Below the pieces are notes generated by a model. That model was not told the DNA's origin. It worked only from the letters and a program-made list of their open reading frames with translations, and did not search any database. A stretch of DNA of 64,000 nucleotides from Bacillota bacterium. GTDB taxonomy: Bacteria > Bacillota > Limnochordia > DUMW01. The position numbers and the translations under genes were made by a program. Below are positions 3,565-27,242 of this stretch, piece after piece; position 1 is the stretch's first letter; the number at the start of each line of letters is the position of its first letter. Where the stretch lies: assembly GCA_012839765.1 (NCBI GenBank), contig DUMW01000068.1:1-64000 (forward strand), written 5' to 3'.

Positions 3565-5037
3565 CTAGACGTATCGGGTACCCACCAGGGACAGTCTCCC
3601 GAGGGTAAAGGGCTTTTCCTGTTCCTTCGGCAACTGCAAGCGCACATATAGCTCCCTGGCTTGCTTGAGCACTTCATAGGGAATCTTCACCGCGGCTACC
3701 TCACCGTTCACCTCCCCCTTCCAGACGGGTACGAAATAGCGACCTGTGATGGACAGCTTAAGCTGCACCTGGCCCTGACCGGCTAACTTGAGGGTAGCAT
3801 CACCGTAATCCTTCACCGGTAGCCGATACACTACGCTGCCGCCTGGACTCACCAGTTCCACCTGCCCATCATCGATCGGCTGCCCGTCCAGGCTGATTGG
3901 CTCTCCTGGGCTATTCTCCTCGGTAACAGCAGAGATATACGTTACAGGAATAGTGAAGGAATACGCAAAATCAGGGCCCTCCACCTGCAGATCAATGGAC
4001 TTGGTCTCCTTGGAGACGGTGAACGAACCTACGTAGTACCCATTGCCTTCCCAACCAACAGACCAACATTCCTTCTTGGGCATGCGGATCTTTTCATGCC
4101 GGTAATAACTATCTTCTTCGAACACAACCACTTGCTGCGTAGTCCGGCCGGTGATCCTCACACCAGGCACATGTTCACCCCGGAAGCGGATACGCACAGG
4201 CAGGACAACCCGACGTTCTGGACGATCGGTGACCACAGTAAAGCTAGCAAAGACGGGCTCCACTTCCACCTCCGGAATCGACACGATCTGCCCAAAACGT
4301 TCGGCAATCTTAAGATAACGCTCCTTGGGTTGGATACTGTGGGTCCATGCGTTGACGGCCCGCTGTAGGGTAAAGCCTGGCCATCCCTTCGCCCCGCCTC
4401 GGCGGTGCTGCAAAGCTTCCTCATCGCTCATAAAAGGTTCAAACAACCCAGGCTCCCTGCGCAACATCTCCTCCAGGAAAGTATCCAGGAAGTCGGCGTG
4501 GGGAAACCCGTCGAGGGGCAACTCCGTGACAACCTTCTGCCCCGTATGGAAGAAAAGCATTTCATATGTATGCTGGGCTTCATGCTCCAAGACCATTGTT
4601 ATCCCCGGATCCCTTTTCTGAAAGCGGGATACCGAAAAAGACATAAAGGGTGTCGTATCTGGTCCTAAGAGGGCACCTCCACCGTACATCTGTTTAGCGT
4701 CATCTATATTCTTCCACGCCCACATAGACCATACCAAATCATAGCTGCTGGGGTTAAGCCCGGTCTTCTGCAACTGTTGCCAGGTGTCGTGGGCCGACAT
4801 CCAAAACCGATGCTTCTCAATTTCCCAGATGTCCTGCCGGGCGAGGGGGGTGTCCATCAACACAAAGTGATAGTCTTCACACATTTTTTCACCGGCAACC
4901 ATCGCTAGCCAGTCCCGGTATTCTACTAGCTTCTCGGCAACCAAGTACTCCTGTTCCTCGTCAAACTTTTCCGTGAAAGTGTGTGTAAATAAGGGAATCA
5001 TCACATCGAGCTTAAGGCGCTTCTTCTCCGCATCCAA
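3565..5037 (-). CDS. Putative zinc hydrolase of an HExxH family, no signal peptide (paralogue 1)
   Basis: A 490-residue protein of a family I do not recognise, with three more members in this window. The signature is HEAQH at residues 152-156 inside LEHEAQHTYE, a conserved PHAD (His180) about 25 residues later and a conserved EPG (Glu195). HExxH is the classic zinc-binding and catalytic motif of zincin metallopeptidases; the His and Glu downstream are candidates for the third ligand. The C-terminal half (about 230-490) looks all-beta. Unlike two paralogues it has no signal peptide and no discoidin domain, so it appears cytoplasmic. The start is TTG 5037, seven bases after GAGGTGA, with an in-frame stop just upstream, so no longer N-terminus is possible. 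Zinc enzyme is inferred from the motif; peptidase or glycan substrate is unknown. Confidence 0.7.
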   Translation of the reverse strand: MDAEKKRLKLDVMIPLFTHTFTEKFDEEQEYLVAEKLVEYRDWLAMVAGEKMCEDYHFVLMDTPLARQDIWEIEKHRFWMSAHDTWQQLQKTGLNPSSYDLVWSMWAWKNIDDAKQMYGGGALLGPDTTPFMSFSVSRFQKRDPGITMVLEHEAQHTYEMLFFHTGQKVVTELPLDGFPHADFLDTFLEEMLRREPGLFEPFMSDEEALQHRRGGAKGWPGFTLQRAVNAWTHSIQPKERYLKIAERFGQIVSIPEVEVEPVFASFTVVTDRPERRVVLPVRIRFRGEHVPGVRITGRTTQQVVVFEEDSYYRHEKIRMPKKECWSVGWEGNGYYVGSFTVSKETKSIDLQVEGPDFAYSFTIPVTYISAVTEENSPGEPISLDGQPIDDGQVELVSPGGSVVYRLPVKDYGDATLKLAGQGQVQLKLSITGRYFVPVWKGEVNGEVAAVKIPYEVLKQARELYVRLQLPKEQEKPFTLGRLSLVGTRYV

Positions 5038-5464
5038 TGCTAGTCACCTCGTAACAAAAACTATGAATACTGACTACTTCGTATAGTTCTTTGAATTCTG
5101 GCTGGGACTTACTCGACAGCTAGGAACGAAAAAGACAGACACAACCCGAAGGGGCTAAGACCACCCGCCGGAAAGAACGCTCCCGCAGCCACCGGTACGG
5201 GCCTTCTACTCCCTTTACAGCCCTGCGCTGACAACCTCTTCTCCCAGACCCGTAGACCACCTTCGGAGTTCCTCTGCATCCGACGTATCCAAAAGCAACA
5301 TCCATAAGCGGCCTTCTTTATTCTGCTGTAAGTATAGCACTTTGGCAGTAGCCCAACTTGTACAATTGTTGCGCGATACAACATGTCCCTTAACTTGCGG
5401 TGATGGAGAAAGTCGAAAACAGCAGGTGGTCTGTCAACGCTCATCGTCGCGCATCAAGAACTCG

Positions 5465-5486
5465 GTGTGATGTATCATCACCACAC
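5465..5486. promoter_or_regulatory. Dyad with GTGTGATG half-sites
   Basis: GTGTGATG, TAT, CATCAC, then C and ACAC form an almost perfect inverted repeat about 430 bases before the start of paralogue 1. The half-site GTGTGAYG is the same core as in the tandem motif upstream of neighbouring genes, but here it is arranged head to head. An operator is plausible; I have no direct evidence. Confidence 0.35.
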
Positions 5487-5586
5487 ACTCGATTAAGCTA
5501 AGTCAGCTCCCATCTGGTAGACCGACCCGGGCGTATACCACCAGGACAGTCTCCACCTCCCGGGGTATGTTACCTTCTAGGCCAGG

Positions 5587-5631
5587 AAAAAGCCAAAGCT
5601 CCGCCAGCGGTGAAGACTAGCGGAGCTTGGC
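5587..5631 (-). terminator. Intrinsic terminator of the sugar-binding protein gene
   Basis: On the minus strand GCCAAGCTCCGC pairs with GCGGAGCTTTGGC (one bulged base) across a loop of about 18 bases and is followed by a short T run. It lies about 30 bases after the stop of the gene at 5664. Confidence 0.8.
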
Positions 5632-5663
5632 AGGTGGTTCCAGGATGGAGGGTATCAGCTACC

Positions 5664-6932
5664 TTACTTATTCCTGAATTGCTGGTCTAGGATCGTCTGC
5701 GCCCGTTCCACCGCAGACCGCATCGCCTGGTCAGCAGACTTCTGCCCGGTAAAGGCTTGCCACAGCTCATCGTTAAAGATCGGCTGAATGTTATTGGTCC
5801 AGATGGGGTTGCGGACAAAATAGTGGACAGTGTTCGCATACTGAATGGCCTCCAGGAACGGCCGCTTCAGCGGATCATTCCAAAGATCGAACTCAGAGGC
5901 CACGCTGGGCAATGCCGGCAACGCCCAGTCCATCTCCACCATCAAGCCATGACCGATGGGCCCAGACAAGTATTCCAGCAACATCACTGCTTCCTCGGGG
6001 TGCTTGGTCCCGGACCACACTACCCAACCGGAGCTGTGCAGCACTGTCTGCAGTTCCTTGCCTTCGGGATGTGGAGGAATCACACCACCCAACCGCAACT
6101 TCGGGTTCTGAGACAGGTAACCTGCCACCGCCCAATGCCCGTTATCCTGCATGGCCACGTGTCCCGTATGGAGGCCTGTACTGGAAGCCAGCTCACCGGA
6201 GTATGGCACCACATGATACCGTACCCGTAGGTCAGCCAACCACTGGACTGCATCAATGGTCTCAGGACGATCCGCATAACCCGCCACATATCTTCCGTCC
6301 GGCGAGAGCAAATCGCCACCATTGGACCAGACGTAACCGGCAGTACCGTAGGTCTCGTCACTGAACTGGAAGGCGAACTTCTTCTGTTCCACATCGGTCA
6401 GCTTAAGACAGATCTGCACAAACTCATCCCAGGTCCAATCGCCGGTGGGATAGGGCAGACCCGCCGTGTCGAAGCAATCCATATTGTACATAATGATCCG
6501 CGGCGTGAAGCTGTGGGGCAGGCCATAGACGCTATTGTCCACCATGCCAGCATAGGGCATGACCTGAGGGAAGTAATCATCCACGGAAAGCCGATCGCTC
6601 TTTTCCAGGAAGGGGCTGATGTCCTCCAGAAAGCCCTCATTTACCAGCATAGGGAAATCCCACCACATAAAGACATCAGGGGCGCTGTTGGTCATCAGGC
6701 CGATGACCAGCTTGTCAAAATAGTCGCCAGTACCATACTGGACTTCCACTTCGATGTTCGGATGATCCTCCATGAACTTCTGAACAATGATCGGTACAGG
6801 GTTACCATCGGGTCCGTCCCAATGACTGAGGACAAGCTTAATCTTCTCCTCTGCACTGGCCACAGCAGCGAACAGGAATGGGATTAGAAGCAAACCCACC
6901 ACCACTAGACAGACAACTCTTGTTTTTCGCAT
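5664..6932 (-). CDS. ABC transporter sugar-binding protein, family 1 (periplasmic type)
   Basis: A 422-residue extracytoplasmic solute-binding protein of the family that feeds oligosaccharides to ABC importers. Residues 1-27 form a signal peptide ending in an AxA site (AAVASA-EEK); the mature part starts with KIKLVLSHWDG and has the usual APDVFMWWDFP hinge-region segment. The signal has no lipobox cysteine at its end, unlike typical Gram-positive binding proteins, which suggests a periplasmic protein. No permease or ATPase gene is nearby. It is a paralogue of the protein at 15476-16729 (shared FDKL, WWDFP, HSSGWVV and EYLSGPIG segments). ATG 6932 is chosen because AAAGGAA lies nine bases upstream. 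A copy of the tandem motif lies about 600 bases upstream. Confidence 0.9.
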   Translation of the reverse strand: MRKTRVVCLVVVGLLLIPFLFAAVASAEEKIKLVLSHWDGPDGNPVPIIVQKFMEDHPNIEVEVQYGTGDYFDKLVIGLMTNSAPDVFMWWDFPMLVNEGFLEDISPFLEKSDRLSVDDYFPQVMPYAGMVDNSVYGLPHSFTPRIIMYNMDCFDTAGLPYPTGDWTWDEFVQICLKLTDVEQKKFAFQFSDETYGTAGYVWSNGGDLLSPDGRYVAGYADRPETIDAVQWLADLRVRYHVVPYSGELASSTGLHTGHVAMQDNGHWAVAGYLSQNPKLRLGGVIPPHPEGKELQTVLHSSGWVVWSGTKHPEEAVMLLEYLSGPIGHGLMVEMDWALPALPSVASEFDLWNDPLKRPFLEAIQYANTVHYFVRNPIWTNNIQPIFNDELWQAFTGQKSADQAMRSAVERAQTILDQQFRNK

Positions 6933-7935
6933 CTGCTGCACTTCCTTTCTTTCCTGCTTGTATGTAGATTATTCTTATTTAGGTGACAGCTTAAACTTTA
7001 GGCTCACAGTCTTCACTCCCACCCCAAAAGCCCCTGCATCAGAACGAAGGGGGCGATCTTCTACCACTCCTCACAAAACTGTCTAGTTCCAGAAGGGACG
7101 AACCGTACACACGATCACGTACCCTGGAAATAGGCTTGCACCAAAAGACACATCATCGGGCTGGCTTCGCCTGAAGACAACGACAACCAACGCAAACGGC
7201 CTGCTAAAGCTCAACGTGCTCTGCCCCTGCCCAGTTCCATCGCCGCTTGGCATAATCCCCAGCAAAACGCGGCACTCCTCTTTACTCCATCGTTCTCTTA
7301 CTGAGACACAGGGCTGGATTCCTCCAGCCCCATGCCGACTACACTCTTTCAGGATGCGTCGCCCTGCTGCAGGGCCATCGCCCCAACATCTGCCTTACGG
7401 GCGGACGCAAGCGTGGAGGTGCGCGGATCACTTCAGAAAACTAGTTTTCAGGATACTACTTCCTTTATTTTTACTATAACACGCCGTTCAAAAGCTTACT
7501 TGCAGTATTGTTGCATAGCGATTTACAGTCTTTTACCGCGTGTGACGCTTTTAGGCGGGCACCCGGATCGAGAAAAAAAGCCTCGGACAGTCTGCACTCT
7601 ATCCGCGCAAAGGCGGCTTGTGTTCCCATGGGGCCCAGGTGAAGGTAACGGTGTAACGGGAGGATAGGACGTACACGGTCAAGGGCTTCCCTCCAGAGGC
7701 AAACCGAGACTCACCAATATTGAACCCGCTTTCCACCTACTTAGGGAAGGGCTCGTGAACCATGCACCGGCAAAGTCTATCCACCGCTGCTAATGGCGGC
7801 AACTTACACCTGACCTTTTCCATGTATACGAAATCGAAGCCCGACCAAAAACAGCGGGAGCTCTTTAAGGTAAGGGCGGTGCCACCGAGGACTCCCCGAT
7901 GGCACCGTGGAGGTATGAGCTGTATGGGGTCAACC
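6933..7935. other. Long intergenic region (about 1 kb)
   Basis: Lies between the sugar-binding protein start and the stop of paralogue 2. It contains a perfect 8-bp hairpin (GGGCTGGA with TCCAGCCC, 7311-7330), a 14-bp perfect palindrome GAAAACTAGTTTTC at 7436-7449, a copy of the tandem motif at 7510-7546 and a weak hairpin at 7877-7907 after paralogue 2. I find no gene and no clear promoter hexamers; the length is unusual for an untranslated leader. Confidence 0.5.
7510..7546. promoter_or_regulatory. Candidate tandem operator (copy 2 of 5, degenerate)
   Basis: GTCTTTTACC followed by GCGTGTGACG gives the second repeat, GTGAC at 7542. The first repeat position, 32 bases earlier, holds only GTTGC, so this copy is degenerate on one side. 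It lies 601 bases before the sugar-binding protein gene, farther than the other copies. Confidence 0.3.
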
Positions 7936-9981
7936 CTATTGGGTGTAATGACGAAAGTCAACTTTCAGACTGGTAACTTCAGCGACGGATGGCGCACTCA
8001 AAGGTCGCTTGTAGTCCGGTGCCAGTCTAACCCGCACGTACAGGTATTCCTGGTTCTGCAGAAGCTCGGGCCGAATGTCAGCCAACTGGGGCTCTTCCTT
8101 CAACTGGTTCTGGAACGCGGCCAGAAAGACCCTTCCGTTAGCCGAGACAGCCACCTCAGCCCAGCCAGAGCCAGTGACTTTAATTTTGCCGGCTTTAGCC
8201 CCCTCGATGGGGACCCGAAATACCACGTACTCACCGTTTTCGCCCACTGTCCAGACACCGTCCTCTGGGGTCACGTTCGTATCATAGACCAGCGTACTGT
8301 CCAAGACTACTTCCCTGGGATAGACATAGATGTAATTCACAGGAATAGTGAATGTCTCGTCGATCTCCTGACCCTTGACGCTAACTTCAATGGCTTCGGT
8401 ATCCTTCGTCACCGTGATCCAGCCTCCATAGATACCATTGCCGTCCCAGCCTGCGGACCAACGTTCCTGCCTAGGCATGCGGATCTCCGGATAGCGGTTG
8501 ATGGTGTCTTCTTCCAGGGTGTAGACCTCGCCGTCCACAGTGGCAGTGACAGTCACACCGGGGATATGCCACCCCTGGTCGCGAACCCTCACCGGGAGAT
8601 AGATTTCCCGCTCTGTAGCGCGGTGGGTAACAATGGCGATGCTCGCCATCAGCGGCTGCACCACAATGTCTCCCCGGGCAGGGACCGTCTTACCCACGTA
8701 CTCCGCCACTTTCATCCAGTTTTCCCTCGACTGGAGCCGGTAGGACCAGGCATTGACACCACGCTGTAGGTTCAAGCCGGGCCAAGTCTTGTAGCTGCCC
8801 GTTCCATCATCGTGGTACTGCATAACTTCCTCATCGGACATGAAGGGTTCCATGAAGCCCGGCTCCAGGCGGATCATCTCATCTAGCAAGGTGCCCAACA
8901 AATCAGCATGGGGCATACCCAGCAGCGGAGGACGTCCGTCGATGGAAAGACCAGCATCGAGGAAAAGGGACTCCCAGGTATGGTGCCCTTCATGCTCCAG
9001 GACCATGAGCGCGGTGATTTCGTTCCAACGACTGGCTAGGTTGCTGAAGGAGAAGGACATGAAGGGTGTATCATCCGGGCCTTCTGTCGCTGCACCGCCG
9101 TACCGTTGCCCGGCCCCGGGGATGTTCTCCCATGCCCACAGGGTCCAAACTAGGTCGTAGTCACTGGGGTTGATACCCGTTGGTGTGAAGTTCCGCCACA
9201 CATCGGAGGGAGTCATCCAGAAGGTATCCTCCCCGTCAATCTCATCCCGGCTCAGGGGTACATCCACCAGCACCAGGTGGTAGTTTTCGTACACATAGTG
9301 GCCCACGACCTGTTCAAACCAGTCCCGGTAGTCGGCGATCCGGTTCATCAGCGTAGGTTCCTGATCCGCAGGCAGTGCCCAAGTAAAGGTCTCAGTGTAG
9401 ATCGGCATCAGGATGTCCACGGCTAACCGCTCCCCTTCCGAAGGAAGCCACGGCTCTCCGTTGCCAGATCCAATCCCCACGTGTTTCAAGAAGGGCTCCT
9501 GGACCTTCACACCATCAAAGGTAAGCTCCAGTATAGATATCTGGCTCACCCTCTCCGGCGGGGTGCTCGTCAGCCGAAAGAAACGGGCCCGCTGAGGAGC
9601 GAAGCTAAAGGTCTCCGACACAGCTGTGGTCGGGACAAAATCTTCGAACACATCTACCCACTGAACACCGTCATTAGAAAGGCTAATCATCACCGAGGAA
9701 CCTTTGGTATCGGCATTGGACCAATCGATGCGCACACGAGAAAACTCGATCTCCCGTGGAAACTCAACCTGAATCCAGTGTTCGGCCCTTACAGCCCGGC
9801 TCACCCACCGGCTCTCCCAATCACCATCAATAGCTTGCTCCACGGTGTAGTTCCCTAGGTGGCCTGATCCCGTAACCACCAGATCCCCAGGACTGAATAA
9901 CTCCATCGCTGTTGCCGTACCTGCACAAAGCAGGGCAGCTACACAACATGCTAAAATGATGATTTGCGCAAACCTACTCAT
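7936..9981 (-). CDS. Secreted putative zinc hydrolase with discoidin domain (paralogue 2)
   Basis: A 681-residue secreted member of the HExxH family. Residues 1-25 are a signal peptide (AGTATA end). Residues 27-165 form an F5/8 type C (discoidin-like) carbohydrate-binding domain (AIDGDWESRWVS, HWIQVEFP, RFFRLTST). A linker (KHVGIGSGNGEPW) leads to the catalytic-looking domain with HEGHH at 330-334, PHAD with His358 and EPG with Glu373, then a beta-rich C-terminal part. ATG 9981 is chosen because the signal peptide begins there and GAAGGGGGTC lies upstream, as in paralogue 3. The discoidin domain suggests anchoring to a glycan outside the cytoplasm; that the enzyme is a peptidase is inferred only from HExxH. 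It is most similar to the protein at 10497-12530, so the two arose by duplication. Upstream lies a good copy of the tandem motif. Confidence 0.75.
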   Translation of the reverse strand: MSRFAQIIILACCVAALLCAGTATAMELFSPGDLVVTGSGHLGNYTVEQAIDGDWESRWVSRAVRAEHWIQVEFPREIEFSRVRIDWSNADTKGSSVMISLSNDGVQWVDVFEDFVPTTAVSETFSFAPQRARFFRLTSTPPERVSQISILELTFDGVKVQEPFLKHVGIGSGNGEPWLPSEGERLAVDILMPIYTETFTWALPADQEPTLMNRIADYRDWFEQVVGHYVYENYHLVLVDVPLSRDEIDGEDTFWMTPSDVWRNFTPTGINPSDYDLVWTLWAWENIPGAGQRYGGAATEGPDDTPFMSFSFSNLASRWNEITALMVLEHEGHHTWESLFLDAGLSIDGRPPLLGMPHADLLGTLLDEMIRLEPGFMEPFMSDEEVMQYHDDGTGSYKTWPGLNLQRGVNAWSYRLQSRENWMKVAEYVGKTVPARGDIVVQPLMASIAIVTHRATEREIYLPVRVRDQGWHIPGVTVTATVDGEVYTLEEDTINRYPEIRMPRQERWSAGWDGNGIYGGWITVTKDTEAIEVSVKGQEIDETFTIPVNYIYVYPREVVLDSTLVYDTNVTPEDGVWTVGENGEYVVFRVPIEGAKAGKIKVTGSGWAEVAVSANGRVFLAAFQNQLKEEPQLADIRPELLQNQEYLYVRVRLAPDYKRPLSAPSVAEVTSLKVDFRHYTQ

Positions 9982-10109
9982 CGCCCTATGACCCCCTTCT
10001 CCAATTTGACTTCTTCCGATGCGGCCAACAGGCCCCACATACTCTTGTTACGCAGAGCCTTCTTAACTATAAATCTAAATCAAGGTAGGTGAGCTTTGCT
10101 TGTCTGCCT

Positions 10110-10145
10110 GTGACATGAAACAATCGTCTTTTGCCCACGTGTGAT
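10110..10145. promoter_or_regulatory. Candidate tandem operator (copy 3 of 5)
   Basis: GTGAC at 10110 and GTGAT at 10141 (start-to-start 31) flank GTCTTTTGCCC. The second repeat sits 160 bases upstream of the start of paralogue 2. The spacing and internal box match the copies at 12722 and 20223. Confidence 0.45.
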
Positions 10146-10430
10146 GATGATTCCCGCCCCCTGCCATCGCACCCGGGTTTCCCCAGGGCACCGGGTCCCT
10201 ACCAGAAGGCTCTCTGGCGTTGTCTGCTGCTGCCTCTAGGAAGAATAGTAACTGCGCAGTACGATCTCCTGTTGCATCCCGTTATATCTGGTGTGTCGGC
10301 TCCGCCAAGGGGGGCAACTGTGGTACCCCGCCTTTCCTACAGGCATCCTTGTCATCTTTTGAACGATCGAAGGTCGTAAACAGATTTCTCAGTACGGCCC
10401 GGTCCGAAAAATGCACGCGGCGGAAATCGC

Positions 10431-10475
10431 AAAGCCCGCGGAACCACCGAACATCGCCGGCGGTACCGCGGGCTT
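10431..10475 (-). terminator. Terminator-like hairpin after paralogue 3
   Basis: AAGCCCGCGG (10432-10441) pairs perfectly with CCGCGGGCTT (10466-10475). On the minus strand it is followed by TTTGCGATTT, a weak T tract. It lies about 20 bases after the stop of the gene at 10497. Confidence 0.65.
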
Positions 10476-10496
10476 AGAGCAGTTCTGGGATCCACC

Positions 10497-12530
10497 CTAT
10501 TGGTTGTAGGAGCGGAAGACTATCTTCAGGTCAGTGACTTCACTGACCGACGGGGCGGAAAGAGGTCGTTTGTAATCCGGGGCCATCCGGAGTCGCACGT
10601 ACAAGTACTCCTGATTCCCCAGAAACTCAGGTCTGACGCTGAACGTCTGTGGATCCTTCGTCAATTCACCCTGGTAAACCGCCAAGAACTGCCTTCCGTT
10701 GCCCGAGACAGCCAACTCCACCCAACCGGAGCCGGCCGCTTCCATCACAGCCGCTTTTGCTCCAGGATTGGGAATCTGGAAGATGACGTAATCTCCGTCC
10801 TCCCCAAAGGTCCAACGGCCGTTGTCCGAGGTAGCAGTACGATCAAAGACCATCTCTGGTCCGAGGAGGGTCACCTGCTGGGTCTCAACATTGATGTAGT
10901 TTACAGGGATCGTAAAGGTCTCATCGAGCCCCTGCCCTTGAACCCTGATCTCGATGGCTTTCGTATCCTTGGTTACCGTGATCCATCCGCCATAGATGCC
11001 GTTACCATCCCAGCCTACGGACCAACGCTCCTGCCTAGGCATCCGGATATCGGAGTGGCGGTAGATGGTGTCTTCCTCTAGGGTGTACACCTGCCCGTTC
11101 ACCGTGGCAGTCACCTTTACGTTGGGAATATGCCATCCCTGGTCGCGCACCCGCACCGGTAGGTAGATCTCCCGTTCAGCACCGCGGTCGGTGACAATGG
11201 ATACGCTAGCAAACAGGGGTTGCACCACGATGTCTCCCCGGGCCGGTGCAGTCTTTCCTACGTATTCCGCCACCTGAAGCCAATGCTCCCTAGGCTGGAG
11301 TCGATAGGTCCAAGCATTGACGCCCCGTTGCAGAGTGAGGCCAGGCCATCCCTTGCTGCCGCCACGACGGTGCTCCAGGACTTGTTCATCGGACATGAAG
11401 GGCTCCATAAACCCTGGCTCCAGTCGCACCATCTCATCCAGCATGGTATCGAGGTAGTCCGCGTGGGGCAGTCCGGTAAGCGGAGGAGTGGTGTTCACCG
11501 ACAGGCCGCTATGCCGGAAGAGAGACTCCCAGGTGTGGTGGGCCTCGTGTTCCAGCACCATGATTATTCCCTGGGATCGCTCCGCGAAGGAGCTGACAGA
11601 GAGGGACATAAAGGGTGTACCGTCGGGACCGTTCAAGGCAGCACCGCCATAGCGTTGGACAGCCCCGGGAATATTCTTCCATGCCCAAAGGGCCCAAACC
11701 AGGTCGTATTCACCGGGATTAATCTCCGCCAGTTTGAGATTGTTCCAGACATCAGTGGGCGTCATCCAGAAGGTATCGTCGCCGTCGATTTCGCTGCGGC
11801 TAAGGGGCACATCCACCAGCGCCAGGTGGTAGTTCTCGTAGACATAGTGACCCACCACCTGCTCGAACCAGTCACGATAGTCAACAATATTCTTCATCAC
11901 CAGATACTCCTGCTCCGCGGGAAAGGCCCAGGTGAAGGTTTCTGTGTAGATTGGGAATAGGACATCCACTGCCAACCGTTCCCCTGGTGAAGAAAGCCAG
12001 GGCTCACCGTTGCCGGAACCAATTCCCACGTGTTTATGGAAGGGCTCCTGGATTCTCACCCCGCCAAAGGAGATCTCCAGGATAGACATCACATTTCCCC
12101 TCTCCGGCGGTGTAAAGGTAAGCCTGCAGAAACGTGCCCACTGGGGTGCAAAGCTCAACGTTTCCGCCTCCGCGGTGGTCGGGACGAAGTCCTCAAAGAC
12201 ATCCACCCATTCTCGACCGTCCGCAGACAGGCTGATCATTACCGACGAACCCATGGTGTTGGCATTGGCCCACTGGATACGTATGCTGGAAAACTCCATT
12301 GACTTTGGAAACTGAATCTGAATCCACTGGTTACTCCGCCCTGGGCTGCTCACCCATCGGCTCTCCACATTACCGTCTACCGCCCGGTCAGGGGTATAGC
12401 TACCGCTAGCACCCGATGCGGTAACAACCAGCTGGTCGGGAGAGAAGATCTCCTGAGCAACAGCTGCACCCGTAACCAAGAGAATAGCGACCCAGCACAC
12501 TGCGACGATGAACGTCGTTAGGATTCTCAT
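10497..12530 (-). CDS. Secreted putative zinc hydrolase with discoidin domain (paralogue 3)
   Basis: A 677-residue close relative of paralogue 2 with the same layout: signal peptide (1-25, ending GAAVA), F5/8 type C domain (27-165; RAVDGNVESRWVS, QWIQIQFP), linker with HVGIGSGNGEPW, and a domain with HEAHH at 328-332, PHAD with His356 and EPG with Glu371, then an all-beta C-terminus ending near APSVSEVTDLKI. The first ATG at 12530 has AGGGGGTC upstream and opens a clean signal peptide. The two adjacent, separately terminated copies, each with its own tandem motif upstream, suggest duplicated independent units rather than one operon. Function is unknown; an extracellular metal-dependent hydrolase that holds on to a glycan is the most economical reading. 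Confidence 0.75.
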   Translation of the reverse strand: MRILTTFIVAVCWVAILLVTGAAVAQEIFSPDQLVVTASGASGSYTPDRAVDGNVESRWVSSPGRSNQWIQIQFPKSMEFSSIRIQWANANTMGSSVMISLSADGREWVDVFEDFVPTTAEAETLSFAPQWARFCRLTFTPPERGNVMSILEISFGGVRIQEPFHKHVGIGSGNGEPWLSSPGERLAVDVLFPIYTETFTWAFPAEQEYLVMKNIVDYRDWFEQVVGHYVYENYHLALVDVPLSRSEIDGDDTFWMTPTDVWNNLKLAEINPGEYDLVWALWAWKNIPGAVQRYGGAALNGPDGTPFMSLSVSSFAERSQGIIMVLEHEAHHTWESLFRHSGLSVNTTPPLTGLPHADYLDTMLDEMVRLEPGFMEPFMSDEQVLEHRRGGSKGWPGLTLQRGVNAWTYRLQPREHWLQVAEYVGKTAPARGDIVVQPLFASVSIVTDRGAEREIYLPVRVRDQGWHIPNVKVTATVNGQVYTLEEDTIYRHSDIRMPRQERWSVGWDGNGIYGGWITVTKDTKAIEIRVQGQGLDETFTIPVNYINVETQQVTLLGPEMVFDRTATSDNGRWTFGEDGDYVIFQIPNPGAKAAVMEAAGSGWVELAVSGNGRQFLAVYQGELTKDPQTFSVRPEFLGNQEYLYVRLRMAPDYKRPLSAPSVSEVTDLKIVFRSYNQ

Positions 12531-12721
12531 TGACGTAAGACCCCCTTTTCGCATCTCACAGAGTTATTCGTAGCCGCAGGTCCAAACAGAGGGCCCTCCT
12601 TTAGATTAGACACCACGCAGTCCCCTAGGCCCCTCGGCTAACCTGCAACTCTTCCCCCACGCAAAGGACTACTATCCTATTTCCAATGTACCAAACTGGC
12701 CGGCGGCACTCTTGACTCTCT

Positions 12722-12757
12722 GTGACCCTGCTTCGCCTGCTTTTGCCCGTGTGTGAC
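12722..12757. promoter_or_regulatory. Candidate tandem operator (copy 4 of 5)
   Basis: GTGAC at 12722 and at 12753 (start-to-start 31) flank GCTTTTGCCCGT. It lies 223 bases upstream of paralogue 3 and is the cleanest copy of the motif in the window. Confidence 0.45.
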
Positions 12758-13196
12758 GGCATCTGTCCTGGCATCCACGGCCAACCCGCGGATAAACCAA
12801 AGGGGTGAACAACTTGCCGGCTTCCTACAGGTCCCCTTCACCCCCGCCGGTTCCGGACAACAGCCTCGCGAATGCACTGCCTGCGATACAAAAAACGTGT
12901 ACCTGGGGAAAGGACGAGTATCTCCACACAAGATGAGCCGCTGTACTAAACAGTTTTCAACGGTCAATGGACTGGATCGGCAGCGGTCCCCTCCCCAAAA
13001 GCGAGCCTATGCCAGGGAAAATCCTCCATACTTGCACCAGGCCCAGCCAACTGCCACCTCCATCCTCAGCGTGACCTGAACCTCAGGTCGGTGGTCTGCC
13101 ACCAGCTTCCTGGGGATTCCCCTTCCCGGTGAACACTCTTGCCTTTGGTTTAGTCCCTCTGACTTACCGGATCCATATCCCCGGGCCGGGCGCACA

Positions 13197-13232
13197 AGAG
13201 AAAATGCGGCCCTTCCAGGCCGCATTTTCTCT
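13197..13232. terminator. Perfect 15-bp hairpin terminator, symmetrical
   Basis: Arms 13197-13211 and 13218-13232 are perfect complements (15 bp) with the loop CTTCCA. The arm ends are A- and T-rich, so a T-rich tail is formed in either direction. It lies just after the stop of the CBM9-like gene at 13254, and seals it off from the gene to the left. Confidence 0.85.
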
Positions 13233-13245
13233 CTCCAAAGCCTCA

Positions 13246-14198
13246 GTAGACCCTTACTTCACCAGGATGAGCCGGCCCATATGCCAGAACTCTTCATGAT
13301 GCACGTCAAGGGCATGACCCCAGAAGTACTGGGAGGTAAGCTTGAAGGCACCACCAAGCACCAAGTCAACCTCGTAGGCCAGGATCCGGAAGGGAGTCTC
13401 CCTACCCTCGTAGGGTTCATCCAGGAAAGCCAGCTCTTTCCAAGGGATCATAATCTCGAAGGTATACCCATCAGCAGTGAACACCCGCTCACCCTTACTG
13501 CCCGGGACCTGATTGTGTCCAGACCGGCCCATGTACATATCCAGGGCGCGGACCTCCTCGCTACCCGCAGGAATCTGCCCATCGGGGTTGACCCGCCAAT
13601 GGGCCCAGATGTGTCCGTCCATCCAGGCGGGATCGCCGGGCTGGGTGATCCCCAGTGCGTCGAAGTAGAAACCGAAGTAGTCGCAATCCCAGAAGTCGGT
13701 TACGGAAACATCATCATCCTTAATAATGCCGGCGAAGTAAATGTACTCTTCGTCCCAGTTACAGTACAAGACACCGGAGAACTTATCGGGATAGACCTCT
13801 TCCAGCGTCCGCCCCTGATAATGATGCCAGTCCGGATTGTTGGGGGAAATCTCGTTTGGATAGGTAGTTACCCACTCGCCCTCATCTAGCTTCCCGTCGA
13901 CGACAATGTTCTTGTTGTAAGCGCTGTACCATACCCCTACCCGATCGTCGGCCGCCGACGCTGTTGCACACAGTGCCAGCAGCATAAGTACGGACAGAAC
14001 CAGTGAGACATGTTTCATTACTGACCATCCTTTCTGCTGTGCTGTTGGTATTTTCGTCAGATGATTGACTGATAACAGTAACAAGAGAAGCACCGTGATC
14101 CCACGGTCAAGCACAATGCCCCTCTTTCTTACCAATCACCAGGCTCGAACACCACCATGCCTACTCAATCTACATCACAACAGTATGTATCCACCAAC
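13246..14198. repeat. Tandem duplication, copy A
   Basis: About 950 bases, covering a whole gene, its last few 3' bases and roughly 180 bases of upstream DNA, are repeated at 14393-15350 with high identity. Both copies keep the same 765-base coding length. The similarity continues through the upstream TTGTGAYG element and fades just beyond it. Confidence 0.85.
13254..14018 (-). CDS. Secreted CBM9-like carbohydrate-binding protein (copy A)
   Basis: A 254-residue protein with a signal peptide (1-22, ending ATASA) and one domain of the carbohydrate-binding module 9 / DOMON-like fold. Diagnostic parts are the early strand IVVDGKLDEGEW, the central YIYFAGIIKDDDV and DYFGFYFDA segment, and EIMIPWKELAF near the end. 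CBM9-type domains bind reducing ends or free sugars; no catalytic domain is attached, so a binding or scavenging role is likely. ATG 14018 is chosen because AAAGGATGG precedes it and it opens the signal peptide. It differs from copy B mainly in a short stretch around residues 170-195. It is followed by a perfect terminator. Confidence 0.8.
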   Translation of the reverse strand: MKHVSLVLSVLMLLALCATASAADDRVGVWYSAYNKNIVVDGKLDEGEWVTTYPNEISPNNPDWHHYQGRTLEEVYPDKFSGVLYCNWDEEYIYFAGIIKDDDVSVTDFWDCDYFGFYFDALGITQPGDPAWMDGHIWAHWRVNPDGQIPAGSEEVRALDMYMGRSGHNQVPGSKGERVFTADGYTFEIMIPWKELAFLDEPYEGRETPFRILAYEVDLVLGGAFKLTSQYFWGHALDVHHEEFWHMGRLILVK

Positions 14199-14401
14199 TG
14201 CGCCGCCGAACCGCCCCGGGTAAGAGTACTGTCTTTTCCTCCATCCACCTGCCACATTACTCGCGGCCGCCTCCCGAGGCAAGGGCATCACTCTTTGAAG
14301 CAAGCTGACCTGACTACCACTAGCCTCCTATGTGGTTCCTGTTCGCCCGGCCGGAGGTTTACCCCTCCAGGCCCTGTTCTTTTCTAAAGTCTTACTAGAC
14401 C
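14019..14401. other. Spacer between the two CBM9-like genes
   Basis: The right part of this region (to about 14198) is homologous to the upstream DNA of copy B and should hold the promoter of copy A. It includes TTGTGATG read on the minus strand near 14176. The remaining 200 bases carry an imperfect hairpin near 14349-14375 after copy B, without a T tract. Confidence 0.5.
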
Positions 14402-15350
14402 CTACTTTACCAGGATGAGCCGGCCCATGTGCCAGAACTCTTCATGATGCACGTCAAGGGCATGACCCCAGAAGTACTGGGAGGTAAGCTTGAAGGCACC
14501 ACCAAGCACCGAATCAACCTCATAGGCCAGGATCCGGAAGGGAGTTTCCCTACCCTCGTAGGGTTCATCCAGGAAAGCTAGCTCTTTCCAAGGGATCATA
14601 ATCTCAAAGGTATACCCATCATCAGTGAACACCCGCTCACCCTTGCTGCCTGGGATCTGCTGATGTCCAGATCGGCCCATGTAATCGTCCCGGGCGCGGA
14701 CCTCCTTGCTACCCTTAGGGCTCTGACCATCGGGATTGATCCGCCAGTGGGCCCAGATATGTCCGTCCATCCAGGCGGGATCGCCGGGCTGGGTGATTCC
14801 CAGGGCGTCGAAGTAGAAACCGAAGTAGTCGCAATCCCAGAAGTCGGTTACGGAAATGTCGTCATCCTTAATAATGCCGGCGAAGTAAATGTACTCTTCG
14901 TCCCAGTTACAGTACAAGACACCGGAGAACTTATCGGGATAGACCTCTTCCAGCGTCCGCCCCTGATAATGATGCCAGTCTGGATTGTTGGGGGAAATCT
15001 CGTTTGGATAGGTAGTTACCCACTCGCCCTCATCCAGCTTCCCGTCGACGACAATGTTCTTGTTGTAGGCGCTGTACCATACCCCTACCCGCTCGTCGGC
15101 CGCCGACGCTGCTGCACACAGTGCCAGCAGCACAAGTATGGACATAATCAGTGAGGCACGTTTCATTACTGACCATCCTTTCTGCTGTGCTGTTGGTGTT
15201 TTTGTCAGATGATTGACAGTGACAAGAGAAGCACTGTGACCGCAGAGGTTAAGCACAGCACCTCCCCTTCTTTTCTTAACAATCACCAGATTATACACCA
15301 GCGTGCTTACTCAGTAGACGTCACAACAGCATGTATTCCACACACTGGGT
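14393..15350. repeat. Tandem duplication, copy B
   Basis: Second copy of the unit described at 13246-14198, in the same orientation. The minus strand reads TTGTGACG near 15319, about 150 bases before the start codon, at the position matching copy A. Confidence 0.85.
14402..15166 (-). CDS. Secreted CBM9-like carbohydrate-binding protein (copy B)
   Basis: A 254-residue paralogue of the gene at 13254, with the same signal peptide layout and CBM9-like domain. In the mature part I count about 12 substitutions against copy A. Seven of them fall within 23 residues (I/S, A/K, E/K, L/R, M/D, N/Q and V/I between NPDGQ and PGSKGE), and several change charge. The flanking aromatic and acidic positions of the fold are unchanged. 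This pattern suggests that a surface loop, perhaps ligand-facing, diverged after duplication, while the scaffold was kept. ATG 15166 follows AAAGGATGG. It may share regulation with copy A because the upstream DNA was duplicated too. Confidence 0.8.
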   Translation of the reverse strand: MKRASLIMSILVLLALCAAASAADERVGVWYSAYNKNIVVDGKLDEGEWVTTYPNEISPNNPDWHHYQGRTLEEVYPDKFSGVLYCNWDEEYIYFAGIIKDDDISVTDFWDCDYFGFYFDALGITQPGDPAWMDGHIWAHWRINPDGQSPKGSKEVRARDDYMGRSGHQQIPGSKGERVFTDDGYTFEIMIPWKELAFLDEPYEGRETPFRILAYEVDSVLGGAFKLTSQYFWGHALDVHHEEFWHMGRLILVK

Positions 15351-15400
15351 CACCGTACTTGCAGTGATGTGAAAGGCTCTCCTGACGCATCCTAAGGAAG

Positions 15401-15438
15401 GAAGCGGTACCGGCCCGAAAAGCCAGTACCGTGCTTCC
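15401..15438 (-). terminator. Terminator-like hairpin after the second sugar-binding protein gene
   Basis: GAAGC-GGTAC pairs with GTACC-GTGCTTC around a loop of about 15 bases (one small bulge). It lies about 40 bases past the stop at 15476 on the minus strand, but no T tract follows, so termination is only possible. Confidence 0.4.
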
Positions 15439-15475
15439 CGATCAACAAGCGCAATCAGCTCCGGATATGAACTGA

Positions 15476-16729
15476 TTACTTGTAGGAATCCATGATCCTC
15501 TGCAGAGCCTCGCCGGCGGCCCGCAGAGCGGTAGCCGGTGCAGCCTGACCATCGAAGATCTGGTTCAGAGCATCCTGAACAACTCCCTGGTATTCGCTGT
15601 TCCACCGCGGGGTGCGCAGGAACCAGTGGGTGGTGGTCGCATACTCCACGGCACGGATAAAGCCGCCGGACTCCGGATCATTCCAGAGCTGGAACTCAGT
15701 CACAACACTGGGCAGGGTGGGCAAAGCCGCATCCTGAATTACCATTTCCCGCTGCCCGATCGGTCCAGATAGGTATTCCAGCACGATCATCGCCGCTTCA
15801 ATATTTTGGCAGTTCGGGCTCACAACCCAACCGGAGCTGTGCAGTACACTACCAGGGGACTTGCCCTCGGGAGCCGGAGGAACTACGGACATCATCCGGA
15901 TATTGGGGTTAGCCTCCTTGCTGACCAACAAGTCCCAAGCACCAGTCTCCATCATGGCGATATTGCCGGTAGCGAAACCTTGACCCGACTGCAGGGCGCC
16001 GGACAAAGGCATAACACCATCCAACAGACGGAGATTAGCTAGCCAGGTCACAGCCTCGATGGTCTCAGGACTGTCTATGTAACCGATGGCCTGCGTGGCA
16101 TCCTCATTTACAAAGTCGCCGCCGTTGCCCCAGATAAACCCACCGATGTTATACACGCCCCAGTACCAATCGAAACCGTACTTGTTCTCGTCGGGACGGG
16201 TAAGCTTCAGAGCGATGTTGCGGAACTCGTCCCAGGTCCAATCGTCGGTAGGATAAGCCAATCCCGCCGCATCGAAGGCGTCCAGATTCACCAGAATCGC
16301 CCGGGGTGTGAAGCTATGGGGCGTCGCGTAGATTCCGTCCTTATACTTCCCGCCGTAGTTCAAAGCGCCCGGGAAGAAGTTGTCCGGATGGAGGACTTCG
16401 CTCTCCAGCATGTACGGCAACAGGTCAACAGCGAATCCACCTTCGGCCAGAGCTGGGAAATCCCACCACAGATAGATGTCCGGTCCGCCGCCTGTGGCAA
16501 TGTTCACGAGGAGCTTGTCAAAGTGGTCAGAACCATAGTACACCTGCTCGATTTCCAGCTCAGGATGGTCCTCCCGGCACTTCTGCAGGATGGTGGAAAT
16601 CGGACCTCGTCCTTCCGGTTCCCAGTCCGCCACGACGATCTTAATCTTCTCGGCACTCATCACACCCGTGATACCCATAACCAGAACCACAACTAGGACA
16701 AAAGTCAACCATGCTTTGCGATTAAACAT
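15476..16729 (-). CDS. ABC transporter sugar-binding protein, family 1 (periplasmic type)
   Basis: A 417-residue binding protein related to that at 5664-6932. It has a signal peptide (1-25, ending GVMSA) with no cysteine, so it is not a lipoprotein, and a mature start KIKIVVADWEPEG. The conserved segments FDKLLVNIA, GPDIYLWWDFP and HSSGWVVSPNC are present. It is the likely high-affinity receptor for an oligosaccharide released by this cluster; the substrate cannot be read from sequence. It sits downstream of the GH127 gene with 183 bases between, so it may be part of the same transcript or separately initiated. The upstream gap contains TTTTGCGTAAGTGTC, a degenerate version of the cluster motif. 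No permease partner is encoded nearby. Confidence 0.9.
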   Translation of the reverse strand: MFNRKAWLTFVLVVVLVMGITGVMSAEKIKIVVADWEPEGRGPISTILQKCREDHPELEIEQVYYGSDHFDKLLVNIATGGGPDIYLWWDFPALAEGGFAVDLLPYMLESEVLHPDNFFPGALNYGGKYKDGIYATPHSFTPRAILVNLDAFDAAGLAYPTDDWTWDEFRNIALKLTRPDENKYGFDWYWGVYNIGGFIWGNGGDFVNEDATQAIGYIDSPETIEAVTWLANLRLLDGVMPLSGALQSGQGFATGNIAMMETGAWDLLVSKEANPNIRMMSVVPPAPEGKSPGSVLHSSGWVVSPNCQNIEAAMIVLEYLSGPIGQREMVIQDAALPTLPSVVTEFQLWNDPESGGFIRAVEYATTTHWFLRTPRWNSEYQGVVQDALNQIFDGQAAPATALRAAGEALQRIMDSYK

Positions 16730-16912
16730 GCAATTAAGCCTCCCTTCTTAGTTTCACCCTACTCTTTTTTGGCTGTTAACTATGACAATGTGCCCGAGTA
16801 CAGTGTTTTGCGTAAGTGTCTTCCTCACCTCACTCCTCGTCGCTTAGGTTGCTTACTGTGCCTAGGTAACACCGAGCTCCTGCCGCCGCGCTTACCGAGG
16901 TAAAAAAGCAGC

Positions 16913-18811
16913 CTACCTCAACTCGTTAATCCACACCCGCATCGCTCCCGAAGCCCGATTATCCCAAGCATAGTAGGGAATAGCTGTAATGGTCACCGGT
17001 GCTACCTTAGAGGGCTGGGTTCGGTACAGGTTCTCGGACCAGTCTTCGTCCAGAACCATGACTGCCTCCCCACGCACCTTCACCAACTCACCCAAAACTC
17101 CATCCCTTTCAAAGGAAGCCTCCAGGGGACTATCCTTCGGTAGCAAAATCCTCTCCAACGAGCTAGACTGATCTACTTCTTCCAGGCAGTAGACAACAGG
17201 TCCCCGCTGGATCGCCACTTTACCAACATTCGCCTCCACATTAGGATGGGCATAGACCCTTTCCACAGGCATTGCCAAATCAACCTCGATGAGATCCTTC
17301 GATTGCCAGGCCCGCCGTAACTTCACATAGCCGTCTTCAGTTGTCCCGTTGTCCACCGGACTACCGTTGATCCTAAGCCCATACTCACGGCACCAACCCG
17401 GTATCCGCAGGCAGATGGTGAACTCCTCCCTGCGTTCGGGATGCACTTCGATCTTTACTGCCCCCTCCCAGGGATAATTGGTTTGCTGCTTTAACACCAC
17501 CTGTTGACCGTTCACTGTCGTCTGGCCTGTACCCGCTACGTAGAGGTTCACATAAACTTCCCCGTCACCACAGGAGTAGACTAACTGCCCCATGGAACCG
17601 AGGAAGCGCACGATATTCGTAGGACAGCAGGCACAGAAATACCAATCCTTCCGGTGGGTCTTCCCGTTACTGGCCAGGACGTTATCGTAGAAGAAGCGCC
17701 GTCCGTCCAGGGAGATCCCACTGAGAAATCCGTTGTAGAGCGTCCTCTCGATCACATCCATAAAGCGGCCCTCGCCGAAAAAGTTGAACAGTCGGTGATT
17801 CCAGAGGATGCTAGCAATGGCAGCACAGGTTTCCGCGTAGGCGGTATCATTGGGTAACTGGTAGGGATCCCCAAAGCCTTCTATTTCCGGCCGCGCACCG
17901 ACGCCACCAGTGATATACATCTTACGTCGATAGACATCATCCCAAAGCTTGAGGGCAGCCTCGATGAGGCTGTCGTCGCCGGCCTCCGCACCTACATCCA
18001 CCATCGCGGCGTACATATATATGGCCCGGACCGCGTGTCCCACCGCCTCCTCCTGTTCCCGCACCGGCAGGTGATCCTGGGCATAGCTGCCGTCATACCT
18101 ACCGCTTCGCATGAAAACATAGCGGTTGAAGGAGCTATCCTCAGGAGCCAGATCCTTAAGCTCTTCTTCGAAAACCGACGGCCTGTGGCCCCGCCGGTCA
18201 AGGAAATACTTAGCAAGATCGAGGTACTTCACGTTACCGGTCAGCCGATAGAGCTTCACCAAGGCCAGCTCGATCTCTTGATGCCCAGGATAACCGTCCC
18301 TTTTCTCCGGACCAAAGACCGACGCGATGTAATCGGCATACCGGCACATGGCCTGAAGGAAGTGGTCCTTCCCCGTAGCCTGGTGGTGGGCAATGGCCGC
18401 CTCGATCAGGTGCCCTGCGTTGTACAGCTCATGCCAGGCCCCCAGGTTCTTCCACCGCAGATCTGGCTTTTCCAGGGTGATAAAGCTGTTGATATATCCA
18501 TCGGGCTGCTGGGCGCTACAGATCTTCCTAATCACCCGTTCCACCACATAGGTCAATTCGGGATCCTCATTATTCATCAGGGCATAGCAGGCACCCTCCA
18601 GCCACTTCGCCACATCCGAATCCCAGTACAGAACCGGTTTGATTCCCTTTTCCGGATCGAGATCGAAGGCGTCAATACGCCCAGAATCTTCACATTTATC
18701 ATAAACATGGGGCAGGGTAACGTCTGTGTTGACCCTGATCCAATGTTCCCAGAACCCACCGGTGAAGGTCACCCTATTGAGCGGCACCGGTTGTAGTTTA
18801 TACCCAGCCAC
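16913..18811 (-). CDS. GH127 beta-L-arabinofuranosidase
   Basis: A 632-residue glycoside hydrolase of family 127 (formerly DUF1680), the family of Bifidobacterium HypBA1. HypBA1 releases L-arabinose from beta-1,2-linked arabinofuranosyl disaccharide on hydroxyproline-rich glycoproteins. The zinc site and nucleophile are recognisable: YAETCA with Glu327 and Cys329, and CACCPTN with Cys395 and Cys396, matching Glu338, Cys340, Cys417 and Cys418 of HypBA1. The (alpha/alpha)6 barrel occupies about residues 10-430 and a beta-sandwich the rest. Length is normal. There is no signal peptide, so it acts on imported oligosaccharides in the cytoplasm. Start is GTG 18811 behind AAGGGGGAAAAGG. It begins 51 bases after the paralogue 4 gene, which implies one operon. 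Activity on beta-L-Araf is a family-based prediction. Confidence 0.88.
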   Translation of the reverse strand: MAGYKLQPVPLNRVTFTGGFWEHWIRVNTDVTLPHVYDKCEDSGRIDAFDLDPEKGIKPVLYWDSDVAKWLEGACYALMNNEDPELTYVVERVIRKICSAQQPDGYINSFITLEKPDLRWKNLGAWHELYNAGHLIEAAIAHHQATGKDHFLQAMCRYADYIASVFGPEKRDGYPGHQEIELALVKLYRLTGNVKYLDLAKYFLDRRGHRPSVFEEELKDLAPEDSSFNRYVFMRSGRYDGSYAQDHLPVREQEEAVGHAVRAIYMYAAMVDVGAEAGDDSLIEAALKLWDDVYRRKMYITGGVGARPEIEGFGDPYQLPNDTAYAETCAAIASILWNHRLFNFFGEGRFMDVIERTLYNGFLSGISLDGRRFFYDNVLASNGKTHRKDWYFCACCPTNIVRFLGSMGQLVYSCGDGEVYVNLYVAGTGQTTVNGQQVVLKQQTNYPWEGAVKIEVHPERREEFTICLRIPGWCREYGLRINGSPVDNGTTEDGYVKLRRAWQSKDLIEVDLAMPVERVYAHPNVEANVGKVAIQRGPVVYCLEEVDQSSSLERILLPKDSPLEASFERDGVLGELVKVRGEAVMVLDEDWSENLYRTQPSKVAPVTITAIPYYAWDNRASGAMRVWINELR

Positions 18812-18862
18812 GACCTTTTCCCCCTTACTCTCTGCCCTTTCGGGCTACTGTCGGCGTCCAAA

Positions 18863-20089
18863 TTAGCCCTTTGCCTTGGCGCCGATCACCCTGATCGGAA
18901 TGGTGATCGGTTTGAATAGTGGTACTTCCTGCACATATATGCTAAACAGAAGGTTCCTGTTTGAATCGAGAGGAACGATGGTCCACGTGGCGTAATAGCT
19001 TTCACCCTTCCAACCTATGGACCATCGCCTTTGAGGAGGTAAGCGATGCTTCTGGTGTCTCAAATATACATTTTCGTGCAGAATGACGCGATCGCCCTCA
19101 ATGACTCCTTCCACTTCCAAGTTGGGGATGTGTCGTCCCTGCTCCCGCAGGCGCACAGGGATAAAGACCGGTCTTTCCCCGTCGGAGGGAGGAGCAATAA
19201 TGGTGATACTGGAAAACAGCGGTTCCTGCAAGAAGCTGCTGCGGGGAGACACCACCGTCCCGAAGGTGGGAGCTAGCTCCAGCCACCTCTTCCGGGGCCA
19301 GCGCCGCAACACCCAGGCATGAACTGCCGACTGTAACCTGCTAGGCAACATCTTCAACTCGCGGTACTGCAGTACCTCTTCGTCGGTAGCTAAGGGGGCA
19401 AAGAGCCCCGGTTCTTCATTTACGATGCTCCGCAGCAACCTGGGCAGATAGTCCGCATGGGGCCATCCCGCAGTCAAGTCTTCGCCGGGATCAGTGATGA
19501 GAGGATAACCCAGTTCTGCCCACAGGAACTCATATGTATGCTGGGCCTCATGCTCGATAATCAAATACGGCCCTGACTCTCCCGGCCAGAAGCGGCTGAC
19601 GGGAAAGGACATAAAAGGTGTCCGTTCGGGCCCAAAGGATGTGCCACCACTGTACCGGGGAAAGGCATCTTTAGAATTCTCCCAGGCCCAGGCACACCAG
19701 ACCAGGTCATATGTACTTGGAGTAATACCCTGGGCCTGCAGTAACCGCCATACATCATGGGTGGACAGCCAGAATTGGTTGGTGTGCAATTCACTAACCT
19801 CGTCCCGGTCCAGAGGATAATCGTACAGAAGAAGATGCAGATCCAGTCTCAGGTTGTGGCCCACGACACACTCCAGCCAGTCACGGTACTCCAGGATCTG
19901 TTGAACAAGGGCATACTCTTGAAGGGTATCGAAGGACCAGGTAAAGGTGCGGGTAAAGAGGCAGAACAAAACGTCCAGTTTGATCCGCTTGCCACTGGTG
20001 ATCAACCAGGGATCACTGGACACTGCCCCGACACCTATGTGGTCGATGAAAGTGCACTCAGTTGGGACAAGACACTCGCCAATATGCAT
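18863..20089 (-). CDS. Putative zinc hydrolase of the HExxH family, no signal peptide (paralogue 4)
   Basis: A 408-residue, shorter member of the HExxH family. HEAQH is at 180-184 (within IEHEAQHTYE), PHAD has His211 and EPG has Glu226. The N-terminus begins at the region (HIGVGAVSSDPW) that links the discoidin and catalytic parts in the secreted paralogues. It has no signal peptide, no discoidin domain, and only a short beta-rich tail (ends near residue 408 instead of extending 200 more residues). The start ATG 20089 follows GGAAGGTGA. It directly precedes the GH127 gene and probably shares its mRNA, so it may act on the same imported substrate, for example a glycosylated peptide (inference). 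It is the most divergent of the four. Confidence 0.7.
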   Translation of the reverse strand: MHIGECLVPTECTFIDHIGVGAVSSDPWLITSGKRIKLDVLFCLFTRTFTWSFDTLQEYALVQQILEYRDWLECVVGHNLRLDLHLLLYDYPLDRDEVSELHTNQFWLSTHDVWRLLQAQGITPSTYDLVWCAWAWENSKDAFPRYSGGTSFGPERTPFMSFPVSRFWPGESGPYLIIEHEAQHTYEFLWAELGYPLITDPGEDLTAGWPHADYLPRLLRSIVNEEPGLFAPLATDEEVLQYRELKMLPSRLQSAVHAWVLRRWPRKRWLELAPTFGTVVSPRSSFLQEPLFSSITIIAPPSDGERPVFIPVRLREQGRHIPNLEVEGVIEGDRVILHENVYLRHQKHRLPPQRRWSIGWKGESYYATWTIVPLDSNRNLLFSIYVQEVPLFKPITIPIRVIGAKAKG

Positions 20090-24146: not shown

Positions 24147-24187
24147 CTTCAAGCTCCCCCTTGCCCCGTTCTCTTGAAATCTGCGTG

Positions 24188-26227: not shown

Positions 26228-26265
26228 GGCACTAACTCCCCTGCAAATGAATTACTCTACCTGAT

Positions 26266-27225: not shown

Positions 27226-27242
27226 ACCCATCACTCCTCCGT

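Follow-up and report, generated by a model that had tools for sequence, protein, structure and literature searches.

Extensin bears Hyp-arabinosides, and the M60-like (PF13402) glycopeptidases commonly have CBM32 partners. Extensin also bears Ser-alpha-galactose (PMC9266454), and it is cleaved by Svx of Pectobacterium, an HExxH zinc peptidase that recognises arabinan side chains (PMC9266454, PMC13164431). Amuc_1438 and OgpA from Akkermansia likewise cut glycoproteins, and, as the example of Amuc_1438 demonstrates, zincins with glycopeptidase activity may be missed by curated families (PMC9513282). The Hyp-arabinoside system of Bifidobacterium combines HypBA2 (GH121), an ABC importer, and HypBA1 (GH127) in one gene cluster (PMC7263609). 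Here, we consider a family of HExxH proteins encoded by four neighbouring genes in the window (the whole analysed stretch of 64,000 nucleotides from a genome of the Bacillota); these are probable zinc peptidases, for which a predicted role in the use of glycoproteins is plausible.

Four paralogues and a relic in the window

The original prediction described four HExxH paralogues, and this description is confirmed; all four are encoded on the minus strand (Table 1). The motif EHE[AG][QH]HT[YW]E is common to all four copies, as are PHAD and EPG; in copy 3, the second His of HExxH and the His of PHAD are 24 residues apart, and EPG lies 13 residues past the Asp of PHAD. The copies can be aligned across the entire catalytic region with pairwise identity of 39–69%, which, taken together with the invariant HExxH and the Asp of HAD, shows that they are homologous rather than similar by chance.

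Two copies, as had been proposed, combine a signal peptide with an F5/8 type C (F5/8C) domain, and the other two have neither. In copies 2 and 3, reading by eye reveals hydrophobic Sec-type signal sequences ending in A-x-A, and the Pfam scores of the F5/8C domains (PF00754) are 58.4 and 71 bits, with the cut-off of 28.2. The nearest solved chains of these domains in the PDB-sequence search are domains of a glucanase/chitosanase, of an alginate lyase, and of CBM32 entries. Copy 3 consists of the signal peptide, the F5/8C domain, the catalytic domain, an Ig-like domain, and a C-terminal beta domain, and copy 4 is formed by the catalytic domain and the Ig-like beta domain.

Judging by this layout, copy 4 is a true short cytosolic type. 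The claim of two cytosolic copies stands in that copy 1 also lacks both the signal peptide and the F5/8C domain, but copy 1 still has the C-terminal beta domain typical of exported copies and hence looks like a shortened descendant of such a copy that has lost its 5′ part. Its gene starts with TTG, preceded by the ribosome-binding site GAGGTG 7 nt upstream, and the domain lacks ~20 residues at its N-terminal end. The 5′ loss speaks for copy 1 being a pseudogene, whereas the good ribosome-binding site and the intact frame speak against it; dS values for this copy are saturated. Just downstream of copy 2 lie the remains of a fifth one (tblastn E-value 1e-6 in a small local database, 0.02 genome-wide), which indicates that copies are both added to and lost from the array.

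Table 1. Coordinates of the genes, domains, and motifs discussed in the text (positions in the window, except for the last two lines, where positions are those of the respective locus).
Feature	Position	Strand	Remarks
Copy 1	3565..5037	−	No signal peptide or F5/8C; N-terminally shortened; C-terminal beta domain kept
Copy 2	7936..9981	−	Exported type, 681 aa
Copy 3	10497..12530	−	Exported type, 677 aa
Copy 4	18863..20089	−	Short cytosolic type, 408 aa; no signal peptide
F5/8 type C domain, copy 2	9559..9873	−	Pfam PF00754, E 1e-15, residues 37–141
F5/8 type C (CBM32-like) domain, copy 3	12075..12425	−	PF00754, E 1.3e-19, residues 36–152
HExxH, copy 3	11535..11549	−	H328, E329, H332
HAD, copy 3	11457..11465	−	H356, A357, D358
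Relic of a fifth copy	7632..7772	−	N-terminal part of the catalytic domain, in-frame stops
GH127 beta-L-arabinofuranosidase	16913..18811	−	Pfam E 5.5e-106; no signal peptide
ABC solute-binding protein downstream of GH127	15476..16729	−	Pfam SBP_bac_1, E 3.1e-28
ABC solute-binding protein between copies 1 and 2	5664..6941	−	SBP_bac_1, E 2.9e-35
Secreted CBM9-like protein	13254..14135	−	Weak Pfam CBM9_1, E 7.4e-4, below cut-off
Secreted CBM9-like protein	14402..15298	−	Weak Pfam CBM9_1, E 8.9e-4, below cut-off
Tandem GH27 alpha-galactosidase genes upstream of the pair, L015	1294–3831
Tandem GH27 alpha-galactosidase genes upstream of the pair, L027	5239–7770

Family range and gene neighbourhoods

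The genome containing the window encodes two more members, on contigs C1 and C27, both divergent (20–26% identity to the window copies). The scan of the genome collection and whole-genome searches showed that two further genomes from the same class contain two members apiece, at locus L015 of genome G136 and locus L027 of genome G062; in each of them, an exported copy with the F5/8C domain is followed by a directly adjacent cytosolic copy. Within the class, three of the 73 genomes contain the family, and no members were found beyond it in two overlapping samples of the phylum (399 and 317 genomes) or in the viral contigs and plasmids searched. Querying the phylum with the divergent pair produced two borderline additional matches: one, to a rubrerythrin-like protein, was rejected as a chance match, and the other, in genome G289 (E-value 0.008), contains stops. 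Thus, according to searches within one phylum, the family is apparently narrow in range, and, with three of 73 genomes containing it, we regard it as a tool of this lineage unless a broader search uncovers relatives elsewhere.

Copy 4 lies immediately upstream of the GH127 gene on the same strand, the distance between them being 51 bp. The GH127 protein contains the AETCA and CACCPTN motifs, has all three Pfam domains (catalytic, middle, and C-terminal), and is closest to a solved beta-L-arabinofuranosidase (PDB:4qjy, E-value 1.9e-181). The genome has two GH127-family genes in all, the second one located ~3 kb from the C27 member; as the family loci with 5 kb flanks occupy ~2% of the genome, the rough chance of finding both GH127 genes there is 4e-4, assuming independent placement of the two genes. 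On the other hand, GH127 occurs in 50 of the 73 genomes examined from the class, and G136 and G062 have it on contigs other than those of the family pair, which is instead preceded by a solute-binding protein (SBP) gene and two genes of GH27 alpha-galactosidases. Hence, the association with GH127 suggested in the original prediction is non-random in the window genome, but G136 and G062 do not share it and have GH27 genes in that place.

The neighbourhoods have further features in common. At the C27 locus, the family member is located near GH127-like and DUF2961 genes (we take DUF2961 to be GH172), an SBP gene, and a gene of a CBM9-like protein, and the C1 member adjoins CBM9-like proteins. SBP genes adjoin all family loci but C1, and glycosidases recur at the C68, C27, L015, and L027 loci; the GH127 and GH27 proteins begin without signal-like segments. 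Despite the two SBP genes, no permease genes of at least 150 aa were recognised at positions 1 to 24000 of the window.

Several other genes were observed along the way. The two CBM9-like proteins encoded at 13254–15298 are closely similar tandem duplicates, and the L027 locus also carries genes of a DUF5696 protein and ABC permeases. At 21678–27234, genes of a protein with SLH and coiled-coil regions, of a protein with an NPCBM-associated domain, and of a protein with a TonB C-terminal domain stand in a row, a possible sign of an outer membrane in this member of the Bacillota. A secreted 661 aa protein with no Pfam match is encoded in a sugar-metabolism neighbourhood (48733–50718), and the sole match of a 480 aa protein (41101–42543) is to GH66, below the threshold, so that it is possibly a divergent TIM-barrel glycosidase.

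Predicted fold and the candidate third metal ligand

The original prediction did not recognise the family, and indeed neither single proteins nor profiles of the catalytic domain gave anything credible in Pfam, NCBIfam, PHROGs, or PDB sequences. None of these libraries connected the domain with a known peptidase at the level of sequence profiles; in particular, the catalytic domain had no match to M60 in Pfam, and M64 (PF09471) had no match in the genome.

The AlphaFold2 model of the 408-residue core, built from a six-row alignment, has pLDDT 78 and pTM 0.83; loci fetched from the genome collection were left out of the modelling. In this model, HExxH lies inside a helix spanning residues 156–176 (local pLDDT 87–91), followed by HAD at residues 192–194 and the next helix starting from residue 196. 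The interpretation of HExxH as a zincin motif, for which structure prediction had been proposed as a check, is thus supported by its position on a single predicted helix. In the Foldseek search with this core, matches to Ig domains swamped the output, although the Amuc_1438 glycopeptidase and ecarin already appeared; since the Ig-like domain dominated, the catalytic domain was refolded alone (pLDDT 82, pTM 0.82). The top PDB matches of the latter model are nearly all metzincins, namely, adamalysins, ADAM8, snake venom metalloproteinases, and fragilysin, with probability up to 0.99 and E-values from 2e-3; as the TM-scores do not exceed about 0.45, they support a metzincin-like topology, not membership. 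The best match in the viral fold library is A0A516MN92, an unnamed 388 aa protein (E-value 8e-5, TM-score 0.40).

The metzincin motif HExxHxxG/NxxH/D is absent, as the sequence HEAHHTWESLF has neither Gly or Asn at position +3 nor His or Asp at position +6 past the second His. Therefore, the catalytic domain, as modelled, resembles metzincins in its topology and appears to belong to a separate zincin family that the searched libraries do not list.

We analysed ten members from three genomes, the alignments being shallow (6–10 rows). In all ten, down to ~20% identity, HExxH keeps its two His and its Glu, and HAD keeps its Ala and Asp. The His of HAD is kept in eight out of ten, i.e., in all window copies and in the divergent members with WHAD among others, and is replaced by Phe (PFAD) in the cytosolic copies of both G136 and G062. 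The Glu of EPG (E371 in copy 3), located ~39 residues after HExxH just past the next helix, is invariant in the eight close members; the divergent members on C1 and C27 have Lys or Ile instead, with a Glu one residue earlier.

Selection was assessed in three pairs with unsaturated dS, the dN/dS ratio being about 0.07–0.13 overall: 0.075–0.085 for the cytosolic copies of G136 and G062, 0.09–0.13 for their exported copies, and 0.13 for window copies 2 and 3. The low ratio in the cytosolic copies suggests that the PFAD forms are maintained, functional proteins. As the Asp is retained in ten members out of ten, whereas the His of HAD and the Glu of EPG are each replaced in some members, we infer from the alignment that the Asp of HAD (D358 in copy 3) is the best candidate for the third ligand. 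The third ligand had been sought in PHAD or EPG; our data favour the Asp of the former, weaken the case for its His, and disfavour the Glu of EPG. The surroundings of this invariant Asp contain neither the HExxHxxGxxD motif of aspzincins nor GTxDxxYG of M35.

Proposed glycoprotein breakdown and comparison with known systems

Taking all this into account, we propose, with confidence close to but below even, one explanation that covers both the HExxH and HAD-Asp site and the pairing of exported and cytosolic copies in glycoprotein breakdown. The two His of HExxH would be zinc ligands and its Glu the catalytic residue, the Asp of HAD at the start of the next helix would serve as the third ligand, and the Ig-like beta domain follows. 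Exported copies would dock on glycans via the F5/8C domain and cut the glycoprotein outside the cell, the released glycopeptides may then be imported via the ABC solute-binding proteins, and the cytosolic copy would degrade them together with cytosolic glycosidases (GH127 here, GH27 elsewhere). Points that count against this explanation are the low TM-scores, the missing sequence-profile link, the shallow alignments, the different neighbourhood in G136 and G062, and the lack of a recognised permease gene in the searched part of the window.

The identity of the third ligand could be seen differently. In a three-His zincin peptidase, the His of PHAD would be the ligand and the Asp a second-shell residue, the site of the PFAD copies being changed or lost; this would agree with the preservation of the His in most members, including the most divergent ones, and with the fold matches, which are three-His metzincins, but the Phe-bearing cytosolic copies are under strong purifying selection and the invariance belongs to the Asp, so that we consider such a site rather unlikely. 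The invariance of the EPG Glu in the close members and its position after the next helix could suggest a gluzincin-like site in which this Glu is the third ligand. However, it is lost from the EPG position in C1 and C27, though the Glu one residue earlier permits a shift, and the spacing of ~39 residues exceeds that in the pattern HExxHx(8,28)E quoted for M60 and Svx (PMC9266454), which makes this arrangement highly improbable.

The function could also be less specialised, if the proteins are general nutrient proteases that happen to be encoded beside glycosidases in a region rich in carbohydrate genes. The commonness of GH127 in the class and the lack of the GH127 link in G136 and G062 agree with this, while the fusion of F5/8C to the exported close members, the location of both GH127 genes within ~2% of the genome around the family loci, and the glycosidases at four loci do not, and we regard a purely nutritional role as rather unlikely. 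Alternatively, the metal site may hydrolyse a glycan or a glycan–peptide linkage instead of the peptide bond, with exported and cytosolic copies acting as in oligosaccharide import. The exported/cytosolic pairs in the context of SBP and glycosidase genes do resemble the Hyp-arabinoside cluster of B. longum (PMC7263609), whereas the leading fold matches are peptidases. To our knowledge, HExxH with metzincin-like topology is known from peptidases only, and hence we deem hydrolysis of a glycan linkage very unlikely.

Returning to the zincin peptidases with the HExxH and HAD-Asp site, a plausible putative substrate is plant hydroxyproline-rich glycoprotein. Both types of neighbourhoods would fit extensin, which carries Hyp-arabinosides, to be removed by GH127, and Ser-alpha-galactose, to be removed by GH27; this fit is non-exclusive, as other uses exist for GH27 and GH127. 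The most specific version, in which a CBM-anchored exported zinc glycopeptidase attacks one kind of glycopeptide outside the cell and its cytosolic counterpart attacks that same kind once imported, so that together they remove the backbone of hydroxyproline-rich plant glycoproteins, is unlikely.

If the proposed explanation is true, standard annotation has overlooked a zincin family whose third ligand is arranged in a new way. Since a cytosolic copy and an exported copy that presumably docks on glycans repeatedly occur together close to glycosidase genes, some anaerobes may import whole glycopeptides, the sugar and the peptide being digested together inside the cell.

Among known systems, the adamalysin/reprolysin and fragilysin metzincins resemble the window family in the predicted catalytic fold, with HExxH on the active-site helix. 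They differ in having the HExxHxxGxxH motif, which is absent here along with any sequence-profile match, and in the window family the candidate third ligand is ~25 residues further on and the active-site helix is longer. The Akkermansia O-glycopeptidases Amuc_1438 and OgpA likewise have a zincin domain outside most curated families, and Amuc_1438, a weak structural match (rank 5 for the longer model), is likewise joined to a carbohydrate-binding domain; in contrast to the window family, they have the three-His metzincin site, and no sequence relation between the two was found. We know of no cytosolic partner of these enzymes. The M60-like glycopeptidases are similar in having glycoprotein substrates and differ in the HExxHx(8,28)E pattern, which is not observed here, as well as in the lack of a Pfam match.

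Svx, compared by description, has the gluzincin motif HExxHx(22)E and an acyltransferase-like partner domain, not F5/8C. Since Svx cleaves extensin, the action of a bacterial zincin on plant wall glycoprotein is already known, and this part of the original prediction is not new (PMC9266454, PMC13164431). The Bifidobacterium system shares with the window locus the clustering of an outside enzyme, ABC uptake, and GH127, but its outside enzyme is a glycosidase, not a peptidase. What would be new here are the third-ligand arrangement and the pairing of exported and cytosolic copies.
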